A DNA stretch of 51,483 nt from Bacteroidaceae bacterium (GTDB lineage: Bacteria; Bacteroidota; Bacteroidia; Bacteroidales; Bacteroidaceae). Shown here in pieces: positions 2,727 to 22,227 of this stretch (position 1 is its first letter; each line of letters starts with the position of its first letter). The translations under genes were made by a program, and so were the position numbers. The stretch lies in contig JAEEGS010000074.1 in the NCBI GenBank assembly GCA_016280445.1, forward strand, positions 1 to 51,483, read 5' to 3'. The notes under the pieces are model-generated. The model searched no databases and had not been told where the DNA came from. It saw only the letters and a list, made by a program, of their open reading frames with translations.

Positions 2727-4193
2727 TTATGCTTTCTGCTGACAGGGAATCCTTTTGATTTTCCATCCGATGGCAGCGACAAGCAAGGTCATCAGAGGGC
2801 TGATGAGGTTGAAGAAGCAATAGGGAAGATAGGTTAGGGTGGGCACACCAAGCACGGCGGCTTGAGTCATTCCGCAGGTGTTCCACGGAATGAGCACAGA
2901 CGTGACGGTGGCCACATCTTCGGCCGTTCGGCTCAACAGGCGCGATTCGTAACCTTGCTGGCGGTATGCGTCTTTATACATATCGGCGGTGAGAACGATG
3001 GAGATGAACTGGTCGCCTGTGGTGAGGTTGAGAAAGAGGCCTGTGCTCGCAGTTGTGGCCACAAGGCTGAAACGGGTGCGGGCAAAGCGGATGATGACAC
3101 GGGTCAGACTTTCTATCATGCCGCTGCTCACCATTGATGCGCCAAAACACATAGCACAGAGGATGAGCCAAATGGTGTTGAGCATCCCTGCCATTCCTCC
3201 TGTGGAAATCAAGTCGTTGAGTGCGGCATTTCCCGTATCGACAGCAGTGGCGCCATAATAGGTGATGGCCAACCCGCACACCAGAGAGGCAGGAGCGGAC
3301 AGGGTGTCGTTGTCGGCAATCTGCGTGAGGATGTGGGGTTGCAGAATGAGGGCACAGATGCCTGCCATGATGGCCGACACAAAGAGGGTGATGACGGAAG
3401 GTGCGCGCTTGGCGATGAGAATGCCCGTGAGAAGTGGCACCAAAAGTGTCCACAGGGAGATGTTGAAGGTGTGGGAAAGGCCTTCCGTGTATTGTGCCAC
3501 TTTCAGTTCCACGTTGGAACCATAGCCCCAACCTGCTATCAGGAAAATGATGAGCGTGATGGTGAAAGTGGGCACTGTGGTGTACATCATGTATCGGATA
3601 TGCACAAACAGGTCGGTGCCTGTGGCTGAAGATGCCAGAATCGTCGTGTCGCTGAGAGGAGACATCTTGTCGCCAAAATAAGCGCCAGAGATGATGGCGC
3701 CAGCCGTCCAGGCCGTGCTGATGCCCAAAGCTTCGCTGATGCCAAGAAGAGCCACGCCCATCGTGGCGATGGTTGTCCACGAACTCCCCGAAAGAAGCGA
3801 CACCAACGCGCAGATGAAACAGGCGCACACAAGGAAGAACTGAGGTGACATGATTTGCACGCCATAATAAATGAGTGTGGGTACGACACCACTAATCATC
3901 CACGACCCCGACAACATGCCTACGGCCAAGAGAATGAGGAGCGTGACGGCTACATCGCCGATGGTTTTTGCGATGCGCTCCTCGAACTTCTTCCATGAGA
4001 TTTTATAGACAATCATAGAGATGGCCACACATACGCTTGTGCCCAGAATGAGGGCTATCTGACTGCCGCCGGAAAGAGAATCGCTCCCGAAAAGATAGAT
4101 GACAGACGCTAAAAGTCCTATCAGCACAACGATGGGTATGCTGGCTACAAGGGGGTGGGGAAGTCTTGTTTGTGTCGATGCTTTCTCTTTCAT
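2727..4193 (-). CDS. nhaC: Na+/H+ antiporter, NhaC family
   Basis: Inner-membrane secondary transporter that exchanges sodium for protons. The 488-residue protein is a run of hydrophobic segments. It carries the family-typical stretches LLSGSSWTTIATMG (around 155-170) and GAYFGDKMSPLSDTT, where polar and acidic residues sit inside a membrane region. It begins 13 bp after the lytic transglycosylase stop and is the last gene of a minus-strand run that starts with the TPR lipoprotein. It ends against the bidirectional hairpin at 2690-2725. Substrate (Na+ alone, or malate/lactate-coupled as in some relatives) cannot be settled from the sequence. Confidence 0.9.
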   Translation of the reverse strand: MKEKASTQTRLPHPLVASIPIVVLIGLLASVIYLFGSDSLSGGSQIALILGTSVCVAISMIVYKISWKKFEERIAKTIGDVAVTLLILLAVGMLSGSWMISGVVPTLIYYGVQIMSPQFFLVCACFICALVSLLSGSSWTTIATMGVALLGISEALGISTAWTAGAIISGAYFGDKMSPLSDTTILASSATGTDLFVHIRYMMYTTVPTFTITLIIFLIAGWGYGSNVELKVAQYTEGLSHTFNISLWTLLVPLLTGILIAKRAPSVITLFVSAIMAGICALILQPHILTQIADNDTLSAPASLVCGLAITYYGATAVDTGNAALNDLISTGGMAGMLNTIWLILCAMCFGASMVSSGMIESLTRVIIRFARTRFSLVATTASTGLFLNLTTGDQFISIVLTADMYKDAYRQQGYESRLLSRTAEDVATVTSVLIPWNTCGMTQAAVLGVPTLTYLPYCFFNLISPLMTLLVAAIGWKIKRIPCQQKA

Positions 4194-4206
4194 AAAACGA
4201 TGCTCG

Positions 4207-5400
4207 TTATTTGATTTTTTTCTTGTATTCGCTCCATCGGGTGCGGATGCTGTTCACGTAGTTATAGGTTTCGCTGCCCCTGAAGTAGCCGTGCTTCACT
4301 TCTGGCTGGTTGTAATATGCAGGGTCGCTCATCTTCAGCACGAAGGCATCTACATTGCCGAGCCACACATCCGGGTTCTTCCCGTATTTCTTTGCCAGCG
4401 TACGTGCATCGTCCAAATGCCCGGAACCAGCATTGTAGGCAGCCAAGATGAAGTTCAGGCGTTCGTCCTTGTTGGCGATGGAAGCATAGCGCTTGTTGAG
4501 TTTGTTGATGACCTTGCTGGCACCTTGCACGTTGCTGCTGGGGTTAAACACTTCTGATTGGGAAACACCCACGTCTTTGGCGGTTGACGGCATCAACTGC
4601 ATCAAGCCCATTGCACCCATGTGGGAAACGGCTTGCGGGTCGAACGAGGATTCCTGATAGGCTTGTGCAGCCATCAGGCGCCAATCCCATCCGCACTGGA
4701 TGGCATATTGCTTGAAGATGTGGTCATAGACGGAAATCTCTCCCTTGGCGGCATTGAGGATGGGCGATGAAACCTTGCGTCGTGGTGTGTAGGTGCGTCC
4801 GCCGCTCGATTTGATGCGGATGGTCGTGTAGTCGAAGAAGTCTTTCTGATGGGTGCTCATCCATTGAGAAAGGGAAGCCGTCAATAATGGAGAATCCTTG
4901 CGTACTCCCCATGTGGCATGTTGGCGTGGACGAAGCGAGTCATCTTTGCGTTGACGCGAAACGCTGTCCATGAAGGTGGTCAACTCCGTTTCTCCCACAA
5001 AGTTCACCTGAGTGAGCAGTGAATCGACGATGTCCAACTGGCAAGCAATGAAATCGCCCTCTCCTTCCTTGAGTTTCCGAATCAAATCCCTTTGATTTCG
5101 AGATATATCCACTCGGATACTTACACCAATACTTTTGGCGTATTCTCGTGCTATCATGAATTGGAGGCCAAAGTCTTCGCTTCTGAACTCGAAGTAACTT
5201 TCAGGGCCATAGAGGGTGAGTACGATGAGTTCGCCATTCTGCTGAATGTCGGGAAGGTCGAAATGGGGATTGCTGTTGGTGGAGGCTGATGCGTATGGGG
5301 ATTTTTCTCCTGCATTGTCCGTCTTGGGTTGATTACAGGAGGTGAACAAAAAACAATGGACAATGAACAATTGCACTAACGCGATATGGAGATATCGCAT
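4207..5400 (-). CDS. MltF-like lytic transglycosylase lipoprotein
   Basis: Cleaves peptidoglycan glycan strands from the periplasmic face of a membrane. The start chosen is the ATG at 5398-5400, which gives MRYLHIALVQLF and a lipobox FTSC; the nine residues of the longer frame (to 5427) are encoded by an intergenic repeat. After the lipidated Cys comes a solute-binding-protein-3-like domain (roughly residues 50-220). The C-terminal SLT domain has the catalytic glutamate in AYQESSFDPQAVS, then GAMGLMQLMPSTA and LAAYNAGSGH, all classic family 1 motifs. Domain order matches E. coli MltF. It lies between a small basic protein and nhaC in one apparent operon. A nested stem-loop overlaps its start. 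Confidence 0.93.
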   Translation of the reverse strand: MRYLHIALVQLFIVHCFLFTSCNQPKTDNAGEKSPYASASTNSNPHFDLPDIQQNGELIVLTLYGPESYFEFRSEDFGLQFMIAREYAKSIGVSIRVDISRNQRDLIRKLKEGEGDFIACQLDIVDSLLTQVNFVGETELTTFMDSVSRQRKDDSLRPRQHATWGVRKDSPLLTASLSQWMSTHQKDFFDYTTIRIKSSGGRTYTPRRKVSSPILNAAKGEISVYDHIFKQYAIQCGWDWRLMAAQAYQESSFDPQAVSHMGAMGLMQLMPSTAKDVGVSQSEVFNPSSNVQGASKVINKLNKRYASIANKDERLNFILAAYNAGSGHLDDARTLAKKYGKNPDVWLGNVDAFVLKMSDPAYYNQPEVKHGYFRGSETYNYVNSIRTRWSEYKKKIK

Positions 5401-10389: not shown

Positions 10390-10754
10390 ATCATCAGCGA
10401 CACACCATCATCATCAAGGGGATGCGCGTCTATGCCTATCATGGCGTGATGGAGCAAGAGCGGAAGGTGGGAGGCAGTTTCACCATCGATGCCGAAGTCG
10501 ATGCCGACTTCTCTGCCGCCATGCTCACCGACAACCTCTCCGACACCATCTCCTATGCCGACCTTCACCAACTCATCCGTCAGGAAATGGCCATCCCGTC
10601 ACAACTCCTTGAGCATGTGGCAGGTCGTATAGCCGAAGCCATCTTCAAGCACTTTCCTCAGTCAAAAGCCGTCCGTCTCCGCATCCTGAAAGAGAATCCC
10701 CCTATGGGAGCCGACTCTCAGGGAGCGGGCGTGGAAATATATGTAGAAAACTGA
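10386..10754 (+). CDS. folB: Dihydroneopterin aldolase
   Basis: Cytosolic folate-pathway enzyme that converts 7,8-dihydroneopterin to 6-hydroxymethyl-7,8-dihydropterin and glycolaldehyde. The 122-aa length is typical. Visible motifs are IIIKGMRVYAYHGVMEQER, including the conserved YHGV, the DNLSDTISYADLH core and the C-terminal KENPPMGADSQGAGVEI with the conserved K-x-x-P. The start overlaps the previous stop as ATGA, implying translational coupling to the RNR-like gene. The MFS transporter follows 19 bp later. The shared operon with a transporter is probably only positional. Confidence 0.93.
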   Translation: MNHQRHTIIIKGMRVYAYHGVMEQERKVGGSFTIDAEVDADFSAAMLTDNLSDTISYADLHQLIRQEMAIPSQLLEHVAGRIAEAIFKHFPQSKAVRLRILKENPPMGADSQGAGVEIYVEN

Positions 10755-10773
10755 AAACAAAACTAAAATAGCA

Positions 10774-12243
10774 ATGAACACAACAACCAGCAAAATGACC
10801 AACTACCGTTGGGTCATCTGTGCGATGCTCTTCCTCGCCACCACGGTCAACTACATGGACCGTCAGGTGCTCTCACTCACGTGGAAAGACTTCATCGCCA
10901 TCGACTTCCACTGGAGCGATGCCGACTACGGATTCATCACCGCCGCATTCTCCATCTTCTACGCCTTTATCTCCCTCTTCGCCGGTAAGTTCATCGACTG
11001 GATGGGCACGAAGAAAGGCTACATCTGGGCCATCGTCATCTGGTCGATTGGCGCCTGCTTGCATGCCATTTGTGGAGTGGTCACCATGTCCCTCACAGGC
11101 ATACCCGACGAGGAAGCCCTGCGAGCCGTCAAAGCAGGCACCGACCTTGCCCTCCTCGTCTCCACCATCAGCGTGTGGCTCTTCCTCGCCTGCCGCATCG
11201 TGCTCGCCACGGGCGAAGCAGGCAACTTCCCGGCCGCCATCAAGGTGACAGCCGAGTTCTTCCCCAAGAAAGACCGCGCCCTCGCCACCTCCATCTTCAA
11301 TGCTGGAGCCTCCGTCGGCGCCCTTGCCGCACCGCTCACCATCCCCGTATTGGCCGAGAGCATGGGGTGGGAGATGGCATTCATCATCATCGGTGGAGTC
11401 GGATTCATCTGGGCAATCCTTTGGGCCGTGCTCTACAACAAACCGACAGAAAGCAAACGGGTGAACGCAGCCGAATTGGCCTACATCCAGCAAGACAGCA
11501 ACGCACCAGCCGAAACAGAAAAGACCTCTGCATCCGCTCCTACGCGTGAGCAAGCCAACGACAACCTCCAGATTTCTTTCTTCAAGTGCTTCACCTATCG
11601 TCAGACTTGGGCATTCATCGTAGGCAAGCTCCTCACCGACGGCGTGTGGTGGTTCTTCCTCTTCTGGGCACCTGCCTATTTCTCCGAACTCGGTTACAAG
11701 TCTTCCGACCCAATGGGACAGGCACTCATCTTCGTGCTCTACCTCATCGTGACCGTCGTCTCCATCGGTGGCGGATACCTGCCCAAATTCTTTGTAGAGC
11801 AGAAGAACATGGAACCCTATTCAGGCCGCATGCTTGCCATGCTCATCTTCGCCTTCTTCCCCATCTTCGCCATGTTTGCCCAGCCGCTGGCAGGCACCTC
11901 CGTGTGGTGGCCCTGCATCATCATCGGCCTTGCAGGCGCAGGACACCAGTCGTGGTCGGCCAACCTCTATTCCACCATCGGCGATATGTTCCCCAAGTCC
12001 GCCATTGCCTCCATCACCGGCATCGGCACCATGTTTGGCGGTCTCTGCTCCTTCGCCATCAACTGGGGAAGCGGCCTCCTCTTCACCTATGCCGAAGGTC
12101 AGGGCGAAGCCTTCCAGTTCTTCGGCGTCACAGGCAAGCCCGCTGGCTACATGATTGTCTTCTGCTACTGCGCCGTTGCCTACCTCATCGCATGGGCATT
12201 GATGAAGGCCCTCGTGCCGAAGTACAAGCCCATCACGAAATAA
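10774..12243 (+). CDS. MFS transporter, hexuronate (ExuT)-like
   Basis: Inner-membrane major facilitator protein of the anion:cation symporter branch, predicted to import glucuronate/galacturonate with protons. The N terminus matches ExuT relatives closely (RWVICAMLFLATTVNYMDRQ, then VLSLTWKDFI). It also has the FAGKFIDWMGTKKGY loop between TM2 and TM3 and ILATGEAGNFPAAIKVTAEF-like TM4-TM5 sequence (read here as VLATGEAGNFPAAIK). A Glu/Ala-rich cytoplasmic loop (about 232-262) splits two six-helix bundles. Total 489 aa. It is the third gene of an operon, closed by the terminator at 12275-12312. Substrate is inferred by similarity only. Confidence 0.87.
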   Translation: MNTTTSKMTNYRWVICAMLFLATTVNYMDRQVLSLTWKDFIAIDFHWSDADYGFITAAFSIFYAFISLFAGKFIDWMGTKKGYIWAIVIWSIGACLHAICGVVTMSLTGIPDEEALRAVKAGTDLALLVSTISVWLFLACRIVLATGEAGNFPAAIKVTAEFFPKKDRALATSIFNAGASVGALAAPLTIPVLAESMGWEMAFIIIGGVGFIWAILWAVLYNKPTESKRVNAAELAYIQQDSNAPAETEKTSASAPTREQANDNLQISFFKCFTYRQTWAFIVGKLLTDGVWWFFLFWAPAYFSELGYKSSDPMGQALIFVLYLIVTVVSIGGGYLPKFFVEQKNMEPYSGRMLAMLIFAFFPIFAMFAQPLAGTSVWWPCIIIGLAGAGHQSWSANLYSTIGDMFPKSAIASITGIGTMFGGLCSFAINWGSGLLFTYAEGQGEAFQFFGVTGKPAGYMIVFCYCAVAYLIAWALMKALVPKYKPITK

Positions 12244-12274
12244 GCGACCCCGCGAGGATTCGACATATCTCCAA

Positions 12275-17783: not shown

Positions 17784-17813
17784 TTTGTTTCTGATAAAAA
17801 ACCACTACATTTG
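17784..17813 (+). promoter_or_regulatory. Promoter for the two-gene DGR-like target operon
   Basis: TTTG at 17784-17787 and TACATTTG at 17806-17813 are separated by 18 nt, one short of the usual spacing. Transcription starting near 17820 makes the ATG at 17847 the likely first codon. Confidence 0.65.
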
Positions 17814-17846
17814 TACATGATTACTAACTTAACCAATAGTGAACAA

Positions 17847-18335
17847 ATGAAAACACCTATGAAAATCTTGAAACCTTTGGTGGTTCTTGTTCTTCTTTTC
17901 AATATGGCATCCCTCGCTCATGCCCAAGAACAGTCCACCCTTGTTGTTTGGCATGCTGATGGCACACAGACCCGTATTGCTCTGTACAAGAAGCCGCAAG
18001 TCACCCTCGACGGGCAGACTGTCAGTTTCAAATCTCCTGTGCTCAACTTGCAGTATCCTGCATCGGATGTGCTGAAGTTCACCTACGAAGGCACTCCTGC
18101 CACTTCTGTTACGTCTCCTCAGGAAGAAACCTCTTACAGTTGTGAAGGTGAAAGCATTTACTTCGACCCAAGCGTAACAGCCGACAAGGTGATTCTTTAC
18201 ACCTCTGGCGGTGTGCGTGTTCCTGTACAGTTCCAGCAGACCGAACGAGGCCTCAGCCTCTCCCTCTCCAGCATCCCATCGGGTGTCTACCTGCTTTCCG
18301 TTGATGGTAAAACCTCTAAATTCGTAAAGCCATGA
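17847..18335 (+). CDS. Secreted protein with a possible sorting-type C-terminal domain
   Basis: Exported protein of unknown function, 162 aa from the ATG at 17847; earlier in-frame starts (17811, 17817) fall in or against the promoter. The signal peptide ends near SLAHAQ. The N-terminal part (LVVWHADGTQTRIALYKKP) resembles the opening module of many Prevotella surface proteins. The C-terminal SIPSGVYLLSVDGKTSKFVK looks like the beta-rich type IX secretion sorting domain, but it is a weak match. The stop overlaps the next start as ATGA, so it is translationally coupled to the 775-aa variable-type protein and may help export or display it. Confidence 0.7.
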   Translation: MKTPMKILKPLVVLVLLFNMASLAHAQEQSTLVVWHADGTQTRIALYKKPQVTLDGQTVSFKSPVLNLQYPASDVLKFTYEGTPATSVTSPQEETSYSCEGESIYFDPSVTADKVILYTSGGVRVPVQFQQTERGLSLSLSSIPSGVYLLSVDGKTSKFVKP

Positions 18336-20659
18336 AAAAACTGCACCTTATCATATTGAGTGCGCTGTTATCTTTAACAGCAACAGCGCAGACCATTGGC
18401 GATGCCTTCTACATTTACCGCAATGATGGTCAGTTCAACGCTTTCTTACGCGAAGAAATTGATAGCATCACCTATTCCTGCTATGACATCGACAGCACCT
18501 ATTGTTATGATGACTACGTGACACAACTCGTCTACACAGAGGACAGCATCTACAGAATCCCGCTGGCAGCAATTGACAGTGTGGGCTTTGTCACACCAGA
18601 AACCAAATATCAGCCGGGTGTGAAACTTCTTGAAGGTGAAATTCGCAATTATATACTTTCTTCCAATTCTTTGACCATCTTCTTCAAGTCAAACACTCCA
18701 TCAGGATTGCTGCCATCGATTGGTGACAAACTGCTGACCACAGAAATGGATGACTTGTTTCCCATTGGCTTTGCAGGAGAGGTTGCTGAGGTTAAGCAAG
18801 ATGGTGATAAAATGGAAGTGGTTTGTGTTCCTGTTAGTTTGGAAGAGGTGTTTGAGTGCTATTATGGAATCTCGTCCATGGAATGGGATGGAACGGCAGT
18901 TACGCGTACAACCCATCCACTGAGTAGTCGCAGGGCATCTGGAACATGGGCGCCAGGCAGGCTAACAATGTCTCTTCTTGACAATTTCGGATTCGTCAAT
19001 TCGTACAAACCAAATGATAACCTTGCCTTCAACCACACAGACCTCAAAGCAGATATCTCAGTCACTCCTGTCGTGTGGGGCAGCATTTATACCATTGTTA
19101 ATCCTCACTATGGCACTCATATCAGTGTCACTATCACAGGTCGGTATGACTTGGAAGAGAACTTTGGCCTTAGGGGTAGTGTGTCTTGGAATAAGGATTT
19201 TGAGCTGATACGTGTTCCATGGCCAATAGCTCCTTTAGTTGATGTTTATATAGCGTTGGGAGGTTTTGTGAGAGCGGAAGCAGACTTGGGAATCCAGAAT
19301 AAGTGGACACAGAAATACCGCAGTGCATTCCATTGGGAGTATGACAGCAAAGGAGAAGAAATGCTCAGACCGGAAAACACGATGATTCCTGTCTCATCCA
19401 ATCAAAGTGGTGAAGCAACCTTGAAAGGATACATCGGTGCAGGTGTTTATTTGGAGGTGGGATGCGATTTCGTTCATACAAGGAAAGCGGACATTGCCAA
19501 TATCAACCTCCGTGGAGAGGCTGGGGTGAAACTGGAAGGCAACCTCGTTCTTGATAAAAATGATACAGAGCAAGCAAAGAAAAACACCGCCATCTATGAG
19601 CAATTAAGAGATTCAGAAGTGTCTCTCGACTGGTTCTATGGTGTTTCAGCCTCAGCCCAATTTTGGAAGTGGATGGTTAGCCGTGAAGTCAATCTGGGGA
19701 ACATAAAACTGAATAATCAAGGACGCATTGTAAGTTACAGTTTGGCTCCGACTTTTTCAGATGTGAAGGCCAAATGGGCATCAGAAAATAATTCTGTTAT
19801 CAATGCTCAAGCCACGGTTGGTACTCCACAGACATTGCTCGGAGGTAAAAGTATTGCCGTTGATGCAGGTCTGGCCATAGTAGACGAAGATGGTGACATC
19901 GTATCACGCTCTTATGAGGTGTCAGATTATCGTGGCGGTCAGAAAAAGACATTTGAGCATAATTTCGGCAATTTGTCCTCTGACGGTAAATATACAATCT
20001 ATCCGTGCATCAAGTGGATGGGGTGCGATTTGTTGGCTTCTCCTAGTGCAGAACCCCAATTAGACAATTGTCCCGACTCCAACCATCCCCACATGATTGA
20101 CCTCGGTCTTCCTTCTGGCACGAAGTGGGCTTGCTGCAATGTTGGAGCACACACACCTGAGGAGTATGGAGGATATTATGCCTGGGGTGAAACGCAGACG
20201 AAGAGCTACTATGATCCGAGCACGTACTCATATTGGCATGATAGCGATGGAGACAATTATCAGGATAGAAACGAGCTCACCAACATCGGCTCTGACATCG
20301 CTGGCACATCCTACGATGCTGCCACTGCCAACTGGGGTGCACCTTGGCGCATGCCTTCGCGGGCTCAGGTTCAGGAACTGCTGAACAACTGCTCCATCCG
20401 CTGGACTCAGCAGAACGGTGTGAATGGGCGATTGTTCACGGGAAGCAATGGAGGCACTATTTTCCTGCCCGCTGCGGGCGACCGCTGGGGCGCTGAGTTG
20501 TCCGGCGAGGGATCGACCGGCCGCTACTGGTCGTCTTCGCTCGGCGAGGGCACCCCGGACGACGCCTACTACCTCTACTTCAACTCGGGTAACGCCGCCT
20601 GCTGGAACTTCAACGGCCGCATCTGCGGGTATACTGTACGCCCTGTGCGCAAGAACTGA
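18332..20659 (+). CDS. Large secreted protein with a C-terminal lectin-fold variable domain (candidate DGR target)
   Basis: 775 aa. A signal peptide (MKKLHLIILSALLSLTATAQ) is followed by an opening module with FYIYRNDGQFNAFLREEIDS and a second AAIDSVGF copy. A long beta-rich central region (about 110-580) is not recognised. Residues 588-775 form a Fibrobacter-major-paralogous / formylglycine-enzyme-like C-type lectin fold: DLGLPSGTKWACCNVGAHTP, YGGYYAWGE, WGAPWRMPSRAQVQELL, FLPAAGDRW, YWSSSL and the terminal GYTVRPVRKN. The last 65 codons are GC-rich and dominated by NNC codons, unlike the rest of the gene, which matches variable regions made by adenine mutagenesis of AAC codons. It is probably a surface-displayed binding protein. 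It overlaps the upstream gene by 4 bp. Confidence 0.85.
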   Translation: MKKLHLIILSALLSLTATAQTIGDAFYIYRNDGQFNAFLREEIDSITYSCYDIDSTYCYDDYVTQLVYTEDSIYRIPLAAIDSVGFVTPETKYQPGVKLLEGEIRNYILSSNSLTIFFKSNTPSGLLPSIGDKLLTTEMDDLFPIGFAGEVAEVKQDGDKMEVVCVPVSLEEVFECYYGISSMEWDGTAVTRTTHPLSSRRASGTWAPGRLTMSLLDNFGFVNSYKPNDNLAFNHTDLKADISVTPVVWGSIYTIVNPHYGTHISVTITGRYDLEENFGLRGSVSWNKDFELIRVPWPIAPLVDVYIALGGFVRAEADLGIQNKWTQKYRSAFHWEYDSKGEEMLRPENTMIPVSSNQSGEATLKGYIGAGVYLEVGCDFVHTRKADIANINLRGEAGVKLEGNLVLDKNDTEQAKKNTAIYEQLRDSEVSLDWFYGVSASAQFWKWMVSREVNLGNIKLNNQGRIVSYSLAPTFSDVKAKWASENNSVINAQATVGTPQTLLGGKSIAVDAGLAIVDEDGDIVSRSYEVSDYRGGQKKTFEHNFGNLSSDGKYTIYPCIKWMGCDLLASPSAEPQLDNCPDSNHPHMIDLGLPSGTKWACCNVGAHTPEEYGGYYAWGETQTKSYYDPSTYSYWHDSDGDNYQDRNELTNIGSDIAGTSYDAATANWGAPWRMPSRAQVQELLNNCSIRWTQQNGVNGRLFTGSNGGTIFLPAAGDRWGAELSGEGSTGRYWSSSLGEGTPDDAYYLYFNSGNAACWNFNGRICGYTVRPVRKN
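20459..20653 (+). other. Candidate DGR variable region
   Basis: Of the 50 codons from 20477 to 20626, 34 end in C, with first and second bases of all kinds (GGC, GAC, ACC, CGC, TAC, TGC, ATC, TTC, AAC). That is the pattern left when AAC codons of a template repeat have their adenines replaced. The invariant end TATACTGTACGCCCTGTGCGC resembles the GC-rich homing-initiation end of Bacteroidota DGR targets (first 20 bases at 20630-20649). Boundaries are approximate. No template repeat or reverse transcriptase is in the window. Confidence 0.65.
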
Positions 20660-20711
20660 GTGCATCCTTTCTCGAAACGTGAATGAAAACCAAAACCCAA
20701 CGCCATTATCG

Positions 20712-20760
20712 TGTGGGCATCCCCCACAGCGGGGCTATGCCTCAAGGCATGGAAGCCCCG
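20712..20760 (+). repeat. Twin hairpins downstream of the candidate variable region
   Basis: Hairpin 1: TGTGGG (20712-20717) / CCCACA (20723-20728). Hairpin 2: CGGGGCT-ATGCC (20730-20741) with a TCAA loop and GGCAT-gga-AGCCCCG (20746-20760), 12 bp with a 3-nt bulge. DGR targets in several systems need a hairpin or cruciform downstream of the variable region. A role here is inference. Confidence 0.6.
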
Positions 20761-20817: not shown

Positions 20818-20854
20818 AAGGGCAACCGAACGCATCGGCTGCCCTTTGTTTTTT
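20818..20854. terminator. Terminator between the DGR-like operon and the DUF4421 gene
   Basis: AAGGGCAACCGA (20818-20829) pairs with TCGGCTGCCCTT (20835-20846), one mismatch on the plus strand and a G-U wobble on the minus strand. A strong T run (20845-20854) follows on the plus side. It is very similar to the hairpin at 22174-22200. Confidence 0.82.
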
Positions 20855-20868
20855 TAATATAATGTTTC

Positions 20869-22090: not shown

Positions 22091-22173
22091 AGGATTTCGA
22101 GGAGAAAATACAAAAAAGAGAGGAAACGGCGGAAGAATAGCGTGAAAAGGAGAATGAGACGGACAAGAAAAAA

Positions 22174-22200
22174 AAGGCAACCGAACGCGTCGATTGCCCT
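22174..22200 (-). terminator. Terminator of the oad operon
   Basis: TCGATTGCCCT (22190-22200) pairs with AAGGCAACCGA (22174-22184); both non-Watson-Crick pairs are G-U wobbles only when read on the minus strand, where a T run follows. It lies 28 bp after the oadB stop. Confidence 0.82.
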
Positions 22201-22227
22201 TTCTTATAATATAATAATGTGTGTCTT

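Follow-up and report, generated by a model that had tools for sequence, protein, structure and literature searches.

Results and Discussion

The locus and its target gene

The stretch of DNA analysed here, in the following called the window, comprises 51,483 nucleotides (positions 1 to 51,483 of contig JAEEGS010000074.1, assembly GCA_016280445.1, Bacteroidaceae bacterium). It carries on its forward strand a gene for a protein of 775 aa, the 3′ end of which was described in a first-pass annotation as a candidate variable region of a diversity-generating retroelement (DGR) without a local reverse transcriptase (RT). A DGR reverse-transcribes a template repeat (TR), putting random bases at its adenines, and the product takes the place of the variable repeat (VR) of a target gene. 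By this, AAC codons turn into NNC codons and the lectin-like binding face of the protein changes, while the reading frame stays fixed. The following features were located:

17811..18335, + strand: upstream ORF, 174 aa, overlapping the start of the target gene
18332..20659, + strand: target gene, 775 aa
20078..20656, + strand: Lcl_C/DUF1566-like domain
about 20462..20653, + strand: putative VR of about 190 bases, with approximate ends taken from the alignment with foreign TR-VR pairs
20501..20626, + strand: 19 codons facing template Asn, all NNC
20660..20669, + strand: motif GTGCATCCTT, directly 3′ of the stop codon, the only copy within the window
20730..20760, + strand: GC-rich hairpin with a stem of 7+5 bp, the loop TCAA and a 3-nt bulge in the 3′ arm

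The target gene presumably encodes a secreted-type protein, judged by a signal peptide recognized by eye at its start. Its GC content rises from 0.45 (18332-20077) to 0.65 (20459-20659). The 174-aa ORF is likely a partner gene of the target; relatives of it are present in eight fetched loci and, in the DGR locus L106, directly 5′ of the DGR target. Downstream of the target gene, a terminator-like stem occurs in two 48-nt copies (20818-20865 and 22173-22220), which are 79% alike and about 1.36 kb apart.

According to its predicted structure, the C-terminal domain appears C-type-lectin-like. Its score for Lcl_C (PF07603, DUF1566) is 24.6 bits and lies below the curated cut-off of 34.9, which is why the domain is named Lcl_C-like only. 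The targets of L106 and L167, for which TR-VR pairs are proven, also stay below this cut-off (19.4 and 22.1). The Lcl_C match is weak, and an FGE-sulfatase identity was rejected, as the window protein has no such Pfam match. NCBIfam and PHROGs yielded no match for this protein, and a search by sequence against solved structures yielded a chance match only. The DGR target of L106 is 32% identical to it over residues 1-581 and 45% over residues 517-774. In some genomes the domain family is large, with 24 matches in G024 and 44 in G037; the latter are found in one genome of 2.9 Mb in which no RT of the type encoded in locus L093 was found at E 1e-6.

RT-TR loci in related genomes

Among domain-bearing loci, 80 from genomes and 35 from viral contigs, a search for repeat copies with differences at template adenines yielded three RT-TR loci (L093, L106 and L167). 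Further loci of this kind were found in genomes of the genus (L222, L223 and L227) and of the family (L355 and L356). In all eight, a DGR-type RT adjoins a TR of the domain type found in the window. The fraction of mismatches falling on template adenines is 33/33 for L093, 29/33 for L106, 20/20 and 22/22 for the two VRs of L167, 22/22 for both L222 and L223, 15/15 for L227, 26/27 for L355 and 18/19 for L356. The TR of L227 is the most distant and the shortest of the TRs encoding this domain type. The order in L093, L106 and L167 is target, accessory protein (about 180 residues), TR and RT, with the RT of L106 running off the fetched locus. All foreign TRs differ from the window repeat also at sites other than adenines, the TR of L093 at 28 of 132. 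The TR-VR scan found no pair in L017, L206, L226, L224, L225, L357 and L358; in L354 it detected nothing but an unrelated repeat.

An RT of the L093 type is encoded, at E below 1e-40, by five of the 45 genus genomes and 19 of the 399 family genomes. A viral origin of the matching RT was considered and rejected: the scan of viral contigs with the L093 RT gave 60 loci with a best identity of 36%, and the domain-bearing viral-contig loci L179 and L189, whose RTs are 40% and 30% identical to that of L093, had no TR listed in the TR scan.

Two side observations concern other arrangements of DGR targets. In L167, two targets about 6 kb apart (3256-5355 and 10752-12251) are fused to protein kinase domains (a Pkinase match in the first, recognized by eye in the second), and both match a single TR with every mismatch at adenines. 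A second DGR type is found in the genus in L079:7194-7325 (G011 C42), where a TR-VR pair lies in a gene that is FGE-sulfatase-like by eye.

The variable repeat and its codon signature

Window codons were counted as Asn-facing if they stood, in a codon alignment, opposite Asn in at least three of five foreign TRs. All 19 of them (first bases at 20501, 20504, 20516, 20522, 20543, 20552, 20558, 20561, 20570, 20576, 20582, 20591, 20597, 20606, 20609, 20612, 20615, 20621 and 20624) end in C, and four remain AAC. Of the 41 codons opposite no Asn, 36 keep a residue which is present in some TR. The third-position ratio of C to T is 19:0 at the Asn-facing codons, 20:8 at the remaining codons of the repeat and 184:224 in the earlier part of the gene. 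This third-base measure presumes AAC in the template, but even in the TR of L222 no more than 13 of 19 such codons end in C. As there is no third-base drift at the 19 variable codons, rewriting was probably recent.

The GC-rich, NNC-dominated 3′ end noted in the first-pass annotation was found again, with 34 of the 50 codons between 20477 and 20626 ending in C. However, at least 34 C-ending codons are also contained in 104 of 10,291 fifty-codon windows from 22 large ORFs, and two other genes reach 37 and 35. The NNC count was therefore dropped as proof of a DGR. Equally high counts in ordinary genes of the window, together with the large families in G037 and G024, would fit an explanation without any DGR, namely ordinary diversifying selection and a preference for C-ending codons in a large paralog family.

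Comparison with the nearest relative

This explanation can be weighed against the differences between the window and its relatives. Among 45 genomes of the genus and 399 of the family (in each of the latter, two candidates were scored), the best DNA relatives of the window repeat are VRs in G043 (77%) and G364 (73%). The nearest copy is that of species G043, the contig of which ends inside the gene. The two repeats differ at 29 of 46 template-A sites, as defined by the foreign TRs, versus 12 of 143 other sites (p 3e-13). At the 18 shared Asn-facing codons, the differences at positions 1/2/3 amount to 13/12/1, and at the 46 other repeat codons to 5/4/6. The domain just upstream of the repeat differs by 23/13/51 over 116 codons, which corresponds to ordinary drift. 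The differences in the repeat are neither evenly spread nor mostly synonymous, a possibility which had been raised against the DGR reading: 25 of its differing codons are non-synonymous and six synonymous, compared to 24 and 41 upstream. Third positions differ in seven of 64 repeat codons versus 51 of 116 upstream codons (p 4e-6). Overwriting of both repeats from similar templates would lead to such a low third-position divergence, but DNA exchange between lineages could have the same effect. As a control, the last 62 codons of the own-genome paralog C55 differ by 2/0/25 from G006 and by 3/0/21 from G030.

Selection acting on residues does not limit third-position changes to one in 18 codons against 13 and 12 at the first and second positions, and it does not place changes at the adenines of independently found TRs. 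An origin without a DGR is thus very unlikely. Judged from its sequence, the end of the window gene is almost certainly a DGR variable repeat, and the initial proposal of such a region without a local RT is supported by the adenine-site pattern relative to G043 and by the RT-TR loci of the same domain type. Against this stands that no genome searched yielded a TR matching the window repeat. Moreover, the alignment of this repeat with that of G043 contains two one-codon gaps, which do not fit A-to-N rewriting from one template.

Search for a template and an RT in the own genome

The own genome is a draft of 84 contigs with a completeness of 97.2%, and the absence of a cassette from it is therefore no proof of loss. 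Searching this draft with the window repeat revealed neither a TR nor a second copy. The TR of L106 did not detect any TR in the own genome either, its best match being the window itself (48 bits), followed by one of 32 bits. A TR matching the window repeat by DNA similarity was absent from the own genome, the 45 genus genomes and the 399 family genomes (with two candidates per genome scored in the family). Searches for an L093-type RT (E 1e-6) and an L106-type accessory protein (E 0.001) were negative for both the own genome and that of G043 (98% complete). As far as the 97%-complete draft shows, the genome has no matching template or RT, an outcome which the first-pass annotation had named as one of two that would speak against its proposal.

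The sole RVT_1 match in the own genome is located on contig C10 and scores 19.6 bits, compared to 49.4 bits for the L093 RT:

L017:8812-10512, minus strand: DGR-like RT on C10, carrying additional repeats at its C-terminus; the surrounding region is prophage-like

Its neighbours resemble, as we presume from inspection by eye, integrase and lysis genes. The C10 RT is 41% identical to the RT of an annotated DGR of Bacteroides phage p00 (BK010646; E 8e-80). It lies 73 bases from the end of the contig, so that the upstream side, where the TR is placed in relatives, is cut off and a template is not visible. These two points would leave room for the idea that the prophage-like RT rewrites the window gene. 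However, the TRs belonging to related RTs in G044, G039, G012 and G016 are of a different sequence type (by eye), and the window repeat has no second copy in the assembly. We regard this idea as very unlikely. TR and VR of phage p00 are also of a different sequence type, and there is no sign that its DGR serves the window gene.

Remote service and remnants in related genomes

A remote target or a fossil were the two options named at the outset for a VR without a local RT, and this was the right pair. Both occur in related genomes. In G013, a draft of 84% completeness and 7% contamination, the repeat of contig C33 and the TR of contig C104 agree at all 135 coding sites other than template adenines, 20 of which differ; over 201 bases there are two further differences, which lie past the stop codon. 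This match points to service in trans. From 16 stretches fetched from G013 besides the cassette, 13 repeats were comparable with the TR, of which one matches fully, two match partially (9% and 14% of non-A sites differ) and ten do not match (27-54%). Four repeats of G044 differ at 10-41% of non-A sites. In the genomes of L093 and L106, one TR serving the paralogs of its genome was considered and not seen.

Remnants are found as well. The repeat of G034, a genome in which no L093-type RT was found, differs from the TR of L093 at 31 A sites and four of 132 others, and its downstream sequence tracks L106 through the hairpin up to the start of the accessory gene and then departs (by eye). In G044 C60, an accessory-like start ends early (by eye), and accessory fragments lie near the domain in G024 C22 and G002 C106. 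The genus hence contains examples of service in trans, seen in one draft genome, as well as broken DGR remnants. The share of Asn-facing codons with C as the third base is 19/19 in the window, 17/18 in G043, 16/19 in G034, 14/19 in G044 C60 and 6/19 in G011. The state of this base may date the end of rewriting, depending on whether the lost template had AAC or AAT. By this measure not all RT-linked repeats are fresh either (L222 12/18, with 13/19 in its TR; L223 13/19; second domain of L093 4/18).

Origin of the window repeat

The window gene would, as far as its sequence signature tells, be the target of a cellular DGR on which two processes acted. The VR would have been rewritten from a TR at adenines, probably recently, and the RT-TR cassette would then have been lost from the lineage, leaving an orphan target which keeps its 3′ site features. 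Loss is proposed because no TR, no L093-type RT and no accessory gene were found in the draft and because members of the genus carry remnants.

Alternatively, the organism could possess a matching cassette that was not captured in the assembly or bin and serves the gene in trans. This would agree with the C33 repeat of G013, which matches the C104 TR except at the template adenines, and with a window repeat that shows no third-base drift. Furthermore, RT-bearing cassettes lie on short contigs in G008 (3,930 bases) and G042 (3,274 bases), and such cassettes can therefore drop out of drafts. Yet no L093-type RT or accessory gene was found in the own draft, which also yielded no TR, or in G043, the next species, in spite of their high completeness. 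In addition, the example of G013 comes from a partly contaminated draft in which only one of 13 repeats fully matches the TR, and the paralogs in the genomes of L093 and L106 do not match theirs. Service by a missed cassette appears conceivable but not probable. We lean towards a cassette that was lost rather than hidden, and an orphaned target is the most likely state of the window gene.

The kind of system is known. DUF1566 is the commonest Pfam domain among the variable proteins of one survey (PMC4159848), and DUF1566 (Lcl_C) targets share with the window gene the C-terminal domain type and the adenine-specific differences (PMC4159848, PMC6642488). Unlike the window gene, for which no TR is known, these targets were found via a TR-VR pair. 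Remote targets are described for Treponema denticola, as are targets in isolates which lack RT and TR and were taken for remnants (PMC4891356). The likeness consists in targets far from or without core DGR components; that study compares strains of one species of another phylum, whereas related Prevotellaceae-type species are compared here. No title on RT-less targets in rumen Prevotellaceae was found in a mostly title-level literature search, which is weak evidence. Roux et al. (2021) state that their own approach would not detect remote targets (PMC8144416).

The notable part is the apparent number of RT-less targets. A set of 142 repeats with at least 14 aligned Asn columns, from 147 stretches passing the repeat pattern, was scored; these repeats were chosen for similarity to the window, and some places were fetched twice. 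In 46 of the 142, the third base is C at 80% or more of the Asn-facing codons. Eight of these 46 are on an RT-bearing locus (three being templates themselves), and for 25, including the window, the fetched locus continues for at least 5 kb past the repeat and yet contains no RT. Such targets escape surveys that depend on a TR-VR pair next to an RT; here, one of them is revealed by its codon signature and foreign TRs. Should the RT-less pattern extend to whole genomes, a large part of the diversifying capacity in these bacteria is not counted.

Candidate target-site features 3′ of the repeat

At least one copy of GTGCATCCTT, the motif following the stop codon, was present in 10 of 100 shuffled versions of the window. 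Within the scored repeats, GTGCATCC follows 23 of the 142 at a distance of at most 70 nt (three of the 23 are TRs), against a background of 65 copies in 3.39 million bases (both strands). As these loci are related, they do not represent 23 independent events, and an expected count and p-value for the motif that assume independence were set aside. GTGCATCC follows the TRs of L093, L106, L222 and L356 and is also located 3′ of the VRs in L354 and L357. Due to its position 3′ of both VRs and TRs, it is a possible recognition element of this DGR group.

The hairpin at 20730-20760 is, likewise from its sequence, a possible DGR target-site hairpin. The window contains stronger hairpins at six further sites. 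Hairpins resembling the one at 20730-20760, with a bulge of 6 nt, are found in L093, L106, at both VRs of L167 and at the orphan repeat of G034, while G043, L222, L223 and L227 have hairpins of other kinds. That a hairpin of the window type was not found within 220 nt in G043 counts against an orphaned target with preserved site features. In Bordetella phage BPP-1, homing depends on a GC-rich hairpin located 3′ of the VR, with 7-10 bp stems and 4-nt GRNA loops at 4-34 bp from the VR (PMC3240598). The putative counterpart in the window differs by a bulged stem of 12 bp, the loop TCAA and a position about 76 bases past the repeat.

A more far-reaching idea is that rumen Prevotellaceae (the habitat and family being inferred) keep a large standing set of RT-less targets with intact repeats and a shared landing site, formed by GTGCATCC and the hairpin. 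Their rewriting would take place only while a DGR cassette moves through the lineage or works from another place in the genome, and the motif would be a new recognition element. We consider this idea speculative and rather unlikely.

On the template side, CACTT(A/G)(C/T)C was seen by eye directly 3′ of the TRs in L093, L106, L167, L222, L355 and L356. In VRs it is replaced by other letters, which makes it a possible template-side boundary signal.
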